Shown: piece by piece, positions 28,166 to 32,970 of the stretch
Numbering within the stretch: position 1 is the stretch's first letter
Layout of the letters: every line of letters starts with the position of its first letter
Assembly (NCBI GenBank): GCA_903838035.1
Contig: CAILWW010000045.1
Location: 1-34,338 of the forward strand
Direction of reading: 5' to 3'
Origin: an uncultured Actinomycetes bacterium
Lineage (GTDB): Bacteria > Actinomycetota > Actinomycetes > Nanopelagicales > Nanopelagicaceae
DNA: 34,338 nucleotides
Translations under genes and position numbers: made by a program
The notes under the pieces: generated by a model
Database searches by the model: none
What the model was told of the DNA's origin: nothing
Seen by the model: the letters and a program-made list of their open reading frames with translations, nothing else

Positions 28166-28250
28166 GGCGGGTTGCCCGAGCGGCCAATGGGAGGGGACTG
28201 TAAATCCCCCGGCTCTGCCTTCGAAGGTTCAAATCCTTCACCCGCCACCA
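28166..28250 (+). tRNA. tRNA-Tyr, anticodon GTA, CCA encoded
   Basis: The acceptor stem pairs GGCGGGT (28166-28172) with ACCCGCC (28240-28246), followed by the discriminator A and CCA. The anticodon stem GGGGA/TCCCC encloses the loop CTGTAAA, with anticodon GTA at 28200-28202. The T arm is GAAGG-TTCAAAT-CCTTC. A long variable arm, as expected for bacterial tRNA-Tyr, lies between them. The gene is complete and presumably functional. Its 3' part from the anticodon onward is duplicated 2.85 kb downstream, which marks it as an integration site. Confidence 0.97.
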
Positions 28251-28251
28251 T
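28200..28251 (+). repeat. attL-like direct repeat: tRNA-Tyr 3' part (copy 1)
   Basis: These 52 bases, from the first anticodon base through CCA and one following T, recur without mismatch at 31052-31103. Just left of the repeat, GACT here corresponds to GACC in the other copy, so the match extends to 55 of 56. The copy is inside the intact tRNA gene, as is usual when an element restores the 3' end of the tRNA it integrates into. Confidence 0.93.
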
Positions 28252-28334: not shown

Positions 28335-31049
28335 ATGTTGAGGGAACGTACGCGAAGTCTTATCACCTCGCTTTGCCTATTCGCCTCTGTTCTTGTAACG
28401 ATTGAAGCCCCTGTTGCGCAAGCTGCAGTTCTCTCCGATGCTGGAAGTAATTGTTCCCTAACGGTGACGAGTGCCGGAGTGACAGTCGATGCAACAAGTG
28501 TTCCCATAACTGTCTCTGGATCTAATTGCGTTGTCCAGTTCAAAACCGTTGGCAGCTACACGGTCACAATTCCGAGTGATGTGTCTGCGGTGAATTATTT
28601 GGTTGTCGGCGGCGGCGGCGGCGGTGCATCTGGTGGCGGTGGCGGTGGTGGCGTGCTCCAAGGAACAAACTTTGCCGTTACACCTAATTCGAATTACTCC
28701 GTAATTGTTGGAGATGGTGGAATCGCTGGTTCGGGTGGTTCGAACTTACAAGGTGGTGATCCCAGATCAGCAAATGGCAGTTCATCAACTTTCTCAACAA
28801 TTAACGCACTCGGCGGAGGTAGTGGTGGACAGGGCGGCGTTGGATATGAAGCAAGAAGCGGCGGAAGCGGTGGCGGTTCTAGATATGACTGCACAGATGC
28901 AACGCCCGGTGCATGCGGGGGCATTGGAACACCCGGACAAGGTAACAACGGAGCGGCATCGACGTATCCAAGTTATGGCGGCGGTGCAGGTGGCGGCGGT
29001 GCAGGATCTGCAGGGCAGAACACAATTCTTAGCAATATTGGTGGTAAAGGCGGCGATGGTGTCGTTGGAGTAATCACTGGCCTAACTTATGGTGGCGGTG
29101 GTGGCGGTGGAATTAATGCAAACTCAAATCAATTTGGTTTTGTAAACGCTTCAGGTAACTCAGACTCACGAGCAGGAGTAGCGACAACTGGAGGCGGACA
29201 AGGCGGTTCCGGTGGTGGAGGTCGTGGAAGTTCCTATGGATACTCCAGTGGAACGCGCGGCCAGTTTGCAAATGCAACCGCAGGAACACCAAATACAGGT
29301 GGTGGCGGTGGAGGTACGGACCCCGAAGACCTTGGCGCTGGAAAGGGTGGCTCTGGAATTGTTGTTTTAAGCTACGTTGCTAGTGCGAATTTACGAACAA
29401 TTACATTCAATTCCAATATCAATACCCCGACAACAACCACACAGTCGGTCACCAGTGGTGTTTCAACTCCACTAACAAGCAATTCTTTCAGTGCAAATGG
29501 TTATGTTTTTAGTAGCTGGAATACTGCCGCCGATGGCTCCGGCACCAGCTATGCAAATCAATCCAATATAGCAATCACCACAAATACCACTCTTTATGCA
29601 CAGTGGATAACTGGTGTAAACCGCACAGTTACATTCAATGCGAATAATGGATCTGGTTCAATGTCCGACCAAACGGCAGGCATTCCAACAAACCTAAATC
29701 CCAATGCATTTACACGTTCCAGCTACACCTTTGCAGGTTGGAACACTGCCGCTAATGGGACTGGATATAGTTATTCTAATCAAGGCTCATTCCCGTTTAG
29801 CACTGACGTGACGTTATATGCGCAGTGGACAGCAGTGGTCACCAACTACACCGTCACATTCTTTGGCAATGGCGCCGATGCGGGTGCAACGCCGTCTCAG
29901 ACCGCTGGATCTGCTCAATCTCTAACTCTAGATGGGTTTACCCGAACGGGCTACAGCTTCTTGGGCTGGGATACTAATTACGCTGCAGGATCTGCCACAT
30001 ATCTAGATGGACAGACCTATGCATTTAGTGGGGCTTTAAGTTTGTATGCAATCTGGGTAACTCAAGCATCTCGAACAATTACCTTTGATGCCAACCTTGG
30101 TACTGGAACAATGGCATCGCAGAGTGCAACTAGTAACACTGTATTAAATTCAAACACTTTTACGCGAAGCGGTTACACCTTTGCAGGTTGGAACACTCAA
30201 GCAAATGGTCTCGGCGTAAGCTATTTAAGTTCCTACACTTATAGCTTTTCGGCTTCGATAACACTTTATGCCATTTGGAGCCAGAACCTCACCGTTTCTT
30301 ATGACAGCAACACGGCAAATACTGGCTCTGTACCTAATTCTCAAACCTACTATGCGGGCGGGCCTACCGTGACCGTTCAAAGTAACTCTGGTTCACTTTC
30401 GAAAACTGGATTTATTCTTACTGGCTGGAACACTGTTGCTAATGGGACGGGAACTAGTTACGCGCTTGGTCAAGTTAATTCCACCTTCGGCGCCAATACG
30501 ACTCTCTTCGCACAATGGAGTGCTGCAACCTACACAGTTTTATATTCGGGAAATGGAAACACATCTGGATCAGTTCCTTCAAACCAAAGTTATGTCTACG
30601 GCGGAACTGCTCTTACCCTCAGCAATAACCCATCACCACTTGCAAGGACCAACTATGTCTTCAGCGGATGGAATACAGCGGCGGACGGTTCTGGAACGAC
30701 TTATGCATCCGGTGCCAGCAATATTACTTTTGCTGAAGATACGGTTCTATTCGCGAAGTGGACTATTAATGCAACGTTATCTATTCCCCAAGTGTCAGTG
30801 GCAAGATATCGAACCGCTAACACTTTGACCCTAACTATAGGTGCGCCAGGGAAATATACGTTTTATGCGCGAGGCAAAAGAATTCCTGGATGCATCAACC
30901 TCACCGGCAATCCTCCGACATTGAACTGTTACTGGAAGCCGAGCTCTCATGGTCAATTCAATATTTCGGTTACTGGCAATGTAGGCGGACGGTCCTATTC
31001 ATCAAATCTAGGCATCTATAACGTTGAACAGAGAGTTGGAACTAGGTGA
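28335..31049 (+). CDS. Secreted glycine-rich protein with six InlB B-type repeats
   Basis: This is a 904-residue protein. A signal peptide at residues 1-30 ends APVAQA. Residues 74-347 form a glycine-rich domain with long GGGGGG runs that opens with YTVTIPSDVSAVNYLVVGGG and closes with GGSGIVVLSY, a known secreted-domain layout. Six repeats of the InlB-B/Listeria-Bacteroides type follow, each about 70-77 residues and ending in LYAQW or a variant: 354-424, 430-498, 505-574, 580-648, 652-728 and 733-809. The last 90 residues include two cysteines (C853, C865) and match nothing I know. No LPXTG motif or terminal membrane helix is seen, so attachment to the cell is unclear. InlB repeats occur in adhesins, and a role in surface interaction or phage exposure is plausible. 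No Shine-Dalgarno sequence precedes the ATG. Confidence 0.88.
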   Translation: MLRERTRSLITSLCLFASVLVTIEAPVAQAAVLSDAGSNCSLTVTSAGVTVDATSVPITVSGSNCVVQFKTVGSYTVTIPSDVSAVNYLVVGGGGGGASGGGGGGGVLQGTNFAVTPNSNYSVIVGDGGIAGSGGSNLQGGDPRSANGSSSTFSTINALGGGSGGQGGVGYEARSGGSGGGSRYDCTDATPGACGGIGTPGQGNNGAASTYPSYGGGAGGGGAGSAGQNTILSNIGGKGGDGVVGVITGLTYGGGGGGGINANSNQFGFVNASGNSDSRAGVATTGGGQGGSGGGGRGSSYGYSSGTRGQFANATAGTPNTGGGGGGTDPEDLGAGKGGSGIVVLSYVASANLRTITFNSNINTPTTTTQSVTSGVSTPLTSNSFSANGYVFSSWNTAADGSGTSYANQSNIAITTNTTLYAQWITGVNRTVTFNANNGSGSMSDQTAGIPTNLNPNAFTRSSYTFAGWNTAANGTGYSYSNQGSFPFSTDVTLYAQWTAVVTNYTVTFFGNGADAGATPSQTAGSAQSLTLDGFTRTGYSFLGWDTNYAAGSATYLDGQTYAFSGALSLYAIWVTQASRTITFDANLGTGTMASQSATSNTVLNSNTFTRSGYTFAGWNTQANGLGVSYLSSYTYSFSASITLYAIWSQNLTVSYDSNTANTGSVPNSQTYYAGGPTVTVQSNSGSLSKTGFILTGWNTVANGTGTSYALGQVNSTFGANTTLFAQWSAATYTVLYSGNGNTSGSVPSNQSYVYGGTALTLSNNPSPLARTNYVFSGWNTAADGSGTTYASGASNITFAEDTVLFAKWTINATLSIPQVSVARYRTANTLTLTIGAPGKYTFYARGKRIPGCINLTGNPPTLNCYWKPSSHGQFNISVTGNVGGRSYSSNLGIYNVEQRVGTR
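29394..30761 (+). repeat. Six tandem InlB B-type repeat units within the cargo gene
   Basis: The units begin near 29394, 29622, 29847, 30072, 30288 and 30531. Each codes for a YTVTF-like strand, a FxxSGYTFAGWNT core and an LYAQW-like end. Units two and four share 24 identical bases (29724-29747 and 30174-30197), enough to permit recombination or slippage that would change the unit number. Confidence 0.8.
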
Positions 31050-31051
31050 CC

Positions 31052-31103
31052 GTAAATCCCCCGGCTCTGCCTTCGAAGGTTCAAATCCTTCACCCGCCAC
31101 CAT
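31052..31103 (+). repeat. attR-like direct repeat: displaced tRNA-Tyr 3' fragment (copy 2)
   Basis: This is an exact 52-base copy of 28200-28251: anticodon GTA, the 3' arm of the anticodon stem, variable arm, T arm, acceptor 3' strand and CCA. No tRNA 5' half precedes it, so it is not a second tRNA gene. The bases to its left, GGTGAC, still pair four of five with TCCCC to form an imperfect core-site inverted repeat. The cargo stop codon TGA (31047-31049) lies in that arm. Confidence 0.93.
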
Positions 31104-31167
31104 CACTTAAGTAATTAACTACTGAATGCAACTCCATTATCTGTGGATATCTAAAATGCTATAGTAA

Positions 31168-31350
31168 CGCCTAACGTTACTAATTGCGGCATCTTTGAAT
31201 GATTTACGAATTCCACCCGGAAACCATTTAAAGCCACTACATGGTAAGCAAAATGGTTTGATGAGTATTCGAATTAATGACAAATGGCGAATATGTTTTA
31301 TATGGACAGAATCAGGACCCAAAGAAGTAAGAATTGTTGATTATCATTAG
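31168..31350 (+). pseudogene. higB: 5'-truncated higB toxin remnant
   Basis: The frame ending at TAG 31348-31350 reads 60 residues that match the carboxy two-thirds of HigB/RelE-type toxins: RLTLLIAASLNDLRIPPGNH, then SIRINDKWRICFIW, and the ending VRIVDYH. TAG and TAA codons stand directly before the arginine, and the roughly 30 N-terminal residues of the family cannot be found in any frame upstream. There is no plausible start codon with a ribosome binding site. The intact antitoxin gene follows after 20 nt, the usual higBA order. The break lies 64 bp from the attR-like repeat, so loss of the 5' end may be linked to recombination there. The remaining sequence from 31104 to 31167 contains nothing recognisable. 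Confidence 0.85.
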
Positions 31351-31370
31351 AAAGAGAGAGGGAGAAAAAA

Positions 31371-31676
31371 ATGGCTAAGCAGCGAGTAAAGGCTGTTACC
31401 CCTGGCGAACTTCTCTGGGAGGAATTCATGGCTCCTTATGGACTTACCAGATATCGACTTGCAAAAGAGATCGGCGTTCCAGCTCAACGCATAGGCGAGA
31501 TAGTGAACGGAAATCGCAGCATTACTGCCGATACCGACCTACGGCTATCTAAGTACTTCAATCTCTCAAAGGGTTACTGGATGAGGGCTCAAGCAGCTCA
31601 TGACCTAGAGGTGGCAGAGAAATCCCTCTCAGCGGAATTGAAGAAAATTAAACCCCTTAACGGCACGGCTGCCTAA
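31371..31676 (+). CDS. higA: HigA family antitoxin, orphan
   Basis: This 101-residue XRE-type protein has a helix-turn-helix at about residues 22-62. The HigA signature is visible as TPGELLWEEFMAPYGLTRYRLAKEIGVPAQRIGEIVNGNRSITADTDLRLSKYF, in which the recognition helix is around PAQRIGEIVNG. A purine-rich GAGAGAGGGAG lies seven to ten bases before the ATG. HigA normally neutralises HigB and represses the higBA promoter. Here the toxin gene upstream is a truncated remnant, so HigA is an orphan that may still bind DNA. It is 10 nt upstream of the FAD oxidoreductase gene and may be co-transcribed with it. Confidence 0.92.
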   Translation: MAKQRVKAVTPGELLWEEFMAPYGLTRYRLAKEIGVPAQRIGEIVNGNRSITADTDLRLSKYFNLSKGYWMRAQAAHDLEVAEKSLSAELKKIKPLNGTAA

Positions 31677-31686
31677 GGTTTAGGAG

Positions 31687-32970
31687 ATGCCGAAAGCAAT
31701 TGTCATTGGCGCCGGAGTCATCGGCTCTTCAATTGCTCTGGAGTTAATACGTAATGGTTTTGAAGTAGAAGTAGTCGATAAGGCCTCAGGTGCAGGGCAG
31801 GGTTCCACGAGTGCTTCCAGCGCAGTCGTTCGATTTAATTACTCGACTTATGATTCCGTGGCACTGGCTTGGGAAGCCTTCCATTGCTGGAAAAATTGGC
31901 AGCAGCATCTAAATGTAAATCTTGCCTCGTACGCCAGGCTGTATGACGTAGGTGTCATCATGCTTGATGCCCCAGTTATTTCTACCGAGCGGACCACATC
32001 GCTATTTGAACAAGTAGGAGTTGCCTATGAAGTGTGGAGCGCTGAAGATTTAAAGAGTAAGGCCTCGTACTTGGATGGTGGCAAATATTGGCCGCCCAAA
32101 CCCGTTACCAGTGATGAGTTCTTTGAAGATGCCCAAAGTAATTTAGGTGCGATATTTACTCCGCAAGGTGGATATGTCGATGACCCACAACTTGCCGCCG
32201 AGAATCTTGCAGCCGCTGCCGCAGCTCTTGGGGCCACATTTAGATTTAAGGCAGAGATTCAGGCTGTACTCAAAGATGGAGATCGGGTAACTGGCGTTGA
32301 GTTAAATAACGGCGAGAAATTATTTTCCGATGTCGTAGTAAATGCAGCCGGTCCTTGGTCGGCCAAAATCAATCAACTTGCTGGTGTGGGTAAGGATTTC
32401 ACGATTGAAGTAAGGCCGATGCGTCAAGAAGTCCATCAAGTAGATACTCCACTCGGGCTCTTGCCGGGTCCAATCGTTGGCGATGTTGATTTGGGTATTT
32501 ATATGCGCCCAACACCAAATGGCGCTCTGCTTATCGGTGGAACCGAACCCGAATGCGATCCGCTGGAATGGGTAGATGATCCAGACTCGGTAAATATGGT
32601 GCGAACCGCAGAGAGATTTGAAGCCCAAGTGACACGAGCAGCACGGAGGCTGCCTGCCTTGCAGATTCCAAATACACCGCTGGGAATCGTTGGCGTATAT
32701 GACGTCTCATCGGATTGGACACCAATCTATGACAAGACAAGCCTTGCAGGTTTTTTCGTTGCCATTGGCACAAGTGGAAATCAATTTAAGAATGCCCCAG
32801 TTGTAGGGCAATTGATGGCTAAGTTAATTGGTGAGGTGCGGGACGGTCGTGATCACGACAGCGATCCGGTGATATTTAAGGGCGCTCATACCGGTAATGA
32901 AATTAATCTGGGAGCCTTCTCCCGTAAACGTGAGTACAACTCCGAAAACACACATTCGGTAATGGGATGA
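31687..32970 (+). CDS. DAO-type FAD-dependent oxidoreductase
   Basis: This 427-residue flavoenzyme is of the D-amino-acid oxidase/sarcosine oxidase/dimethylglycine dehydrogenase superfamily. The FAD-binding Rossmann motif GAGVIG is at residues 8-13, and the ribose-binding acidic residue is in VVDKASG near residue 31. GSTSASSAVVRFNYS follows the dinucleotide fold as in sarcosine-oxidase beta-like proteins. The GWT-like SSDWTPIYDK and the closing GTSGNQFKNAPVVG belong to the second FAD-contacting region. It probably oxidises an amino acid or N-methylated amine, but the substrate cannot be read from the sequence. TTAGGAG sits directly upstream of the ATG. A strong terminator follows the stop. 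Confidence 0.85.
   Translation: MPKAIVIGAGVIGSSIALELIRNGFEVEVVDKASGAGQGSTSASSAVVRFNYSTYDSVALAWEAFHCWKNWQQHLNVNLASYARLYDVGVIMLDAPVISTERTTSLFEQVGVAYEVWSAEDLKSKASYLDGGKYWPPKPVTSDEFFEDAQSNLGAIFTPQGGYVDDPQLAAENLAAAAAALGATFRFKAEIQAVLKDGDRVTGVELNNGEKLFSDVVVNAAGPWSAKINQLAGVGKDFTIEVRPMRQEVHQVDTPLGLLPGPIVGDVDLGIYMRPTPNGALLIGGTEPECDPLEWVDDPDSVNMVRTAERFEAQVTRAARRLPALQIPNTPLGIVGVYDVSSDWTPIYDKTSLAGFFVAIGTSGNQFKNAPVVGQLMAKLIGEVRDGRDHDSDPVIFKGAHTGNEINLGAFSRKREYNSENTHSVMG

Follow-up and report, generated by a model that had tools for sequence, protein, structure and literature searches.

tRNA-fragment cassettes of additive flexible genomic islands have been described in the streamlined Actinobacteria Ca. Actinomarinales (PMC7771536), and tRNA-fragment cassettes with tRNA-Lys repeats in Ca. 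Methylopumilus (PMC10872708). Tycheposons, as far as they are described in PMC10872708, are tRNA-bounded cargo elements of planktonic bacteria, 4-200 kb in length, with a tyrosine recombinase. In the Islander collection (PMC4383910), 2083 of 3919 tRNA islands have an anticodon-centred core, and annotated coding sequence is overlapped by 626 of the 3919, so overlap with coding sequence is common.

Here we analyse a 34,338-nt stretch of DNA (the window) from an uncultured bacterium of the Nanopelagicaceae, in which a gene ends inside a presumed recombination site at a displaced tRNA fragment. We conclude that the inserted unit is, with high probability, a non-autonomous tRNA-Tyr cassette of the tRNA-fragment, additive genomic-island kind, and that it has probably decayed. 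As part of this best explanation, the position of the stop codon within the core arm is very likely incidental: the site does not shape the gene end.

Results

The window contains, all on the forward strand, an intact tRNA-Tyr (GTA; 28166-28250, identified with ARAGORN), the cargo ORF, a distal tRNA fragment, a higB toxin remnant, a higA-like antitoxin gene and an FAD-dependent oxidase gene (31687-32970), which forms the right-hand chromosomal flank. The tRNA-Tyr is both the insertion target and the proximal junction. Its 3' part, a 60-nt direct repeat running from the anticodon arm to CCA (28192-28251), recurs downstream in the same orientation at 31044-31103 with 97% identity, and this distal copy is the scar of the insertion. 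The inserted unit thus delimited measures 2.85 kb and holds one gene. In the uninserted relative G025 the same oxidase gene lies within ∼41 nt after tRNA-Tyr, indicating that the DNA between tRNA and oxidase gene in the window is an insertion. The content at this position varies: it is empty in G025, and other cargo is found in G018, G200, G253 and G010.

Between the distal fragment and the oxidase gene, higB (interval 31201-31371) lacks its 5' half while higA is intact. The remnant (31201-31350) matches only the C-terminal half of its profile (positions 44-91 of 91), and the adjoining higA-like gene (HTH_3, 31371-31676) encodes 101 aa. The higB fragment is probably a leftover of an earlier event at the tRNA-Tyr site.

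The cargo ORF (28335-31049 in the ORF table) encodes a surface protein of 904 aa, with a signal-peptide-like N-terminus, a glycine-rich domain, six Flg_new (List_Bact_rpt) repeats and a C-terminal domain that finishes in the family motif RxGxR. Its last codons are GGA ACT AGG TGA, with the stop TGA at 31047-31049; a second in-frame stop, TAA, follows two codons on (31053-31055), within the core. The motif [KR]RxGxR-stop recurs at the C-terminus of many unlinked surface proteins, from which it follows that the cargo stop is a natural C-terminus. Truncation of the cargo by the attachment site was also considered and rejected, the cargo end fitting the family motif. Further copies of the cargo are scarce: the 296 family genomes yielded only the one in G023, and a public collection only what looks like the same contig. 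Among viral contigs, neither the cargo nor either form of the core found a match.

Reading the junction directly from the sequence and the ORF table confirms what the earlier note had described, namely an ORF ending in AGG TGA whose GGTGA forms the left arm of an imperfect inverted repeat. The left arm (GGTGA, 31045-31049) contributes its last three bases as the cargo stop codon; the anticodon-loop equivalent CCGTAAA (31050-31056), the presumed crossover region, holds the second TAA; and the right arm is TCCCC (31057-31061). Four of the five arm positions pair, the exception being T31047/C31059.

To place this arm in context, we compared distal junctions across the family. In the window, 6 of 8 bases of the distal left arm equal the tRNA arm AGGGGACT. 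Across 19 family distal junctions, some of which are mutually related (G018, G114, G212) and so not all independent, the bases left of GTAAATCC gave 112 matches to this tRNA arm, compared with a null mean of 36 and a maximum of 56 in 5000 draws from nearby sequence. Pairing between left and right arms was likewise in excess in these junctions (66 of 95 positions; null mean 22, maximum 39), and each of the last five arm bases, GGACT, is retained in 16-17 of the 19. The inverted repeat is preserved in G140, where TCCTC on the right faces GAGGA on the left. A left arm that is not conserved was named in the earlier note as a refuting result; judged from these alignments, the left arm is a genuine conserved core-site arm, and its conservation fits the core-binding arm of a tyrosine recombinase.

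This conservation bears on the suggestion that no site-specific recombinase acts at the locus now, and that the 60-nt tRNA repeats and neighbouring genes provide the homology through which recombination swaps or deletes cassettes. The repeats are indeed long and near-perfect, and two cassettes of G018 have in common ∼200 bp ahead of the core, a stretch that takes in the beginning of the MNT gene. However, homologous exchange alone does not predict left arms that are conserved beside the core across unrelated cargo. We therefore consider this explanation quite improbable as a replacement for site-specific recombination, although homologous recombination could act in addition to it.

The tight junction invites a comparison with integrons. 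An integron cassette consists of one gene and a recombination site, its reading frame and attC forming one co-evolved unit, and the earlier note had proposed that the 3' end of the cargo and its attachment site evolved together in this way. The single-gene unit with its tight 3' end, the tandem arrays present in relatives and a second, unrelated cargo that stops close to the core (a DsbD/thioredoxin protein in G094, 6 nt away) agree with this proposal. The stop-to-core distances do not, and they show what the note itself had given as a refuting outcome, other cassettes with long non-coding stretches ahead of the distal repeat. The copy of the cargo in the sister genome G023, 90% identical in DNA and ending in the same final residue, stops 77 nt before the core; its contig starts within the cargo gene, leaving the tRNA-proximal end of that cassette unseen, and its downstream gene differs from that of the window. 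Among other forward cargo genes, stops lie 6, 33, 73, 172 and 228 nt ahead of the core, G094 being the only one that resembles the window, and the last genes of G200, G018 and G114 lie on the opposite strand, with starts 155, 99 and 99 nt from the core. Reading-frame ends thus keep no fixed close spacing to the site (the range is 2 to 228 nt, and some last genes are reversed) in genomes that are fragmented, with several contigs breaking off at the repeat.

Nor is a tight gene end a telling layout here: 20 of the 24 gene 3' gaps in the window are at most 10 nt, indicating that a snug stop is the norm in this compact genome. In the interval 30901-31200 we found no pair of the attC boxes RYYYAAC and GTTRRRY on either strand. 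An integron integrase (IntI) was not found in the window's genome, which is 87% complete and whose three tyrosine recombinases all fall far short of the TIGR02249 cut-off. Given the missing attC boxes, the missing IntI and the variable stop-to-core spacing, we rejected the integron hypothesis, and regard integron-like co-evolution as most improbable. What stands of the cassette layout proposed earlier is insertion at a recombination core, the conserved arm and the occurrence of tandem cassettes in relatives.

Which enzyme might have acted at this site is suggested by related elements. In G287 a distal copy of the tRNA-Tyr 3' half has an integrase gene on one side and, on the other, the oxidase gene also present in the window, and in G140 an integrase gene lies ∼220 nt left of the tRNA-Tyr 3'-half core. 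Both integrases are of phage type, with Phage_integrase plus SAM-like domains. G287, G140 and the G018/G114/G212 cassettes have the repeat TCATACMC at −104, and also close to −93 or −115, against a background of 0.0015 for three positions. In contrast, the window's distal site has no such arm-type repeat, and no Phage_integrase match was obtained on the window's contig. Of the three tyrosine recombinases in the window's genome, two are Xer-like and the third is a partial integrase at a contig edge, adjoining a tRNA-Arg. Action of XerC/D at a dif-like site was considered as a further conceivable route. The lack of an integrase and of arm-type repeats makes it probable that the window copy is not self-mobile, and it is probably no longer mobile.

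The contig-edge integrase (L121:1-795) is itself of phage type, and the tRNA-Arg beside it has the anticodon ACG.

A different reading of the bare distal site is that the unit is a minimal cassette mobilised in trans: a core-only element, made up of the tRNA 3' half, a leader and a single gene, that uses the integrase of another element and does not need arm sites. The clean single-gene unit with its 97% repeat, the presence in the family of integrase elements at tRNA-Tyr sites, and junctions such as those of G094 and G200, which have the conserved arm without detected arm repeats, all speak for such a cassette. On the other hand, the integrase elements and the MNT cassettes have kept arm-type repeats at −104, and no tRNA-Tyr-linked integrase was found in the window's genome. 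We consider trans-mobilisation of a minimal cassette unlikely, and favor a non-autonomous cassette that has probably decayed.

For such a cassette the following sequence of events may be proposed. Acting at the anticodon region of tRNA-Tyr, a phage-type tyrosine integrase would have inserted by recombination an element bearing its own tRNA 3' half, both the catalysis and the crossover position being presumed. The tRNA would thereby have been restored and the old 3' half pushed to the far end of the surface-protein gene, while GGTGACC, the left arm at the distal site, represents the element's own core-site arm. A short deletion may then have removed a spacer such as the one G023 keeps; spacer loss in the window's lineage is one way to interpret the difference between these two genomes. 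The stop falls inside the arm because this is where the gene naturally ends, intergenic DNA being almost absent from this genome. The tRNA-Tyr of G274 (L106:342-421) combines an intact 5' half with a 3' half of the shortened form that is otherwise typical of distal copies; a crossover in the anticodon region would be expected to give such a hybrid, which looks like a recombination product.

Our survey took in 27 genomes from the genus and 296 from the family. At least 44 genomes outside the genus have two or more matches to the tRNA-Tyr 3' half, some of these matches being a complete second tRNA-Tyr gene. Diverse cargo lies between tRNA-Tyr and a distal fragment across the surveyed genomes. 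G018 has two cassettes in tandem, and in G094 a cassette is bracketed by two distal sites. From the sequence comparisons, tRNA-Tyr is an insertion hotspot in both genus and family.

Several other arrangements were observed around tRNA-Tyr. In several genera it is followed by gene-free tandem units of ∼69-79 nt, each consisting of a shortened tRNA 3' half and a spacer of ∼20 nt (L041:9306-9560, L042, L089, L090, L091, L104, L105). In L162, L163, L164, L165 and L169 the tRNA-Tyr 3' half is joined to left sides that resemble the 5' halves of other tRNAs (e.g. CCCGTAGTCCAATGGCAGAGACAGAGGACT). Full tRNA-Tyr genes also occur in pairs 1-15 kb apart, sometimes with different upstream flanks (L081, L082, L083, L086, L087, L088); these pairs possibly reflect elements that carry a whole tRNA-Tyr. 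In three genera, the end of the cargo near distal junctions is formed by an Lcl_C domain that has the motif RPVRAF (L037:8152-9471, L094:2-352, L102:2997-5276). L037 also has a partial bAvd-like reading frame, a weak Pfam match below the cut-off, that enters the core. It is possible that the Lcl_C/RPVRAF cargoes are targets of diversity-generating retroelements on tRNA-Tyr cassettes.

One could go further and picture tRNA-Tyr as a working cassette hub, where integrase elements act in trans on single-gene cassettes that swap surface proteins (possible retroelement targets among them), some being trimmed until coding sequence joins the core. We consider this extension unlikely.

Discussion

The locus offers a clean example of small tRNA-linked cassettes that vary surface proteins in streamlined, presumed freshwater bacteria. 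It also illustrates that integron-like co-evolution need not follow from a stop codon within an attachment core. The set of family junctions, with its conserved arm and −104 repeats, would make the responsible integrase testable.

It is instructive to compare the unit with the known systems. With integron cassettes it shares the combination of one gene and a recombination site, and its relatives show tandem arrays, but its core is tRNA-derived, IntI and the attC signature are absent, and the spacing from stop to site is not fixed. Like the tycheposons it is a tRNA-bounded cargo element; at 2.85 kb and one gene, however, it lies outside the 4-200 kb, tyrosine recombinase-bearing class as described in PMC10872708. 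Its resemblance to Islander islands is closer, comprising the intact tRNA, a displaced 3' fragment that lies on the correct side and is oriented like the tRNA, and an anticodon-centred core; the difference is that it has no integrase gene, and for this reason the strict Islander rule does not admit it. With the cassettes of Actinomarinales and Methylopumilus it has in common a small variable gene cassette at a tRNA, part of which recurs as a direct repeat, whereas it differs in its host group, in its position at tRNA-Tyr, in a 60-nt repeat that begins in the anticodon stem and in its surface-protein cargo. The window unit is a further tRNA-fragment cassette of the additive-island type, located at tRNA-Tyr.
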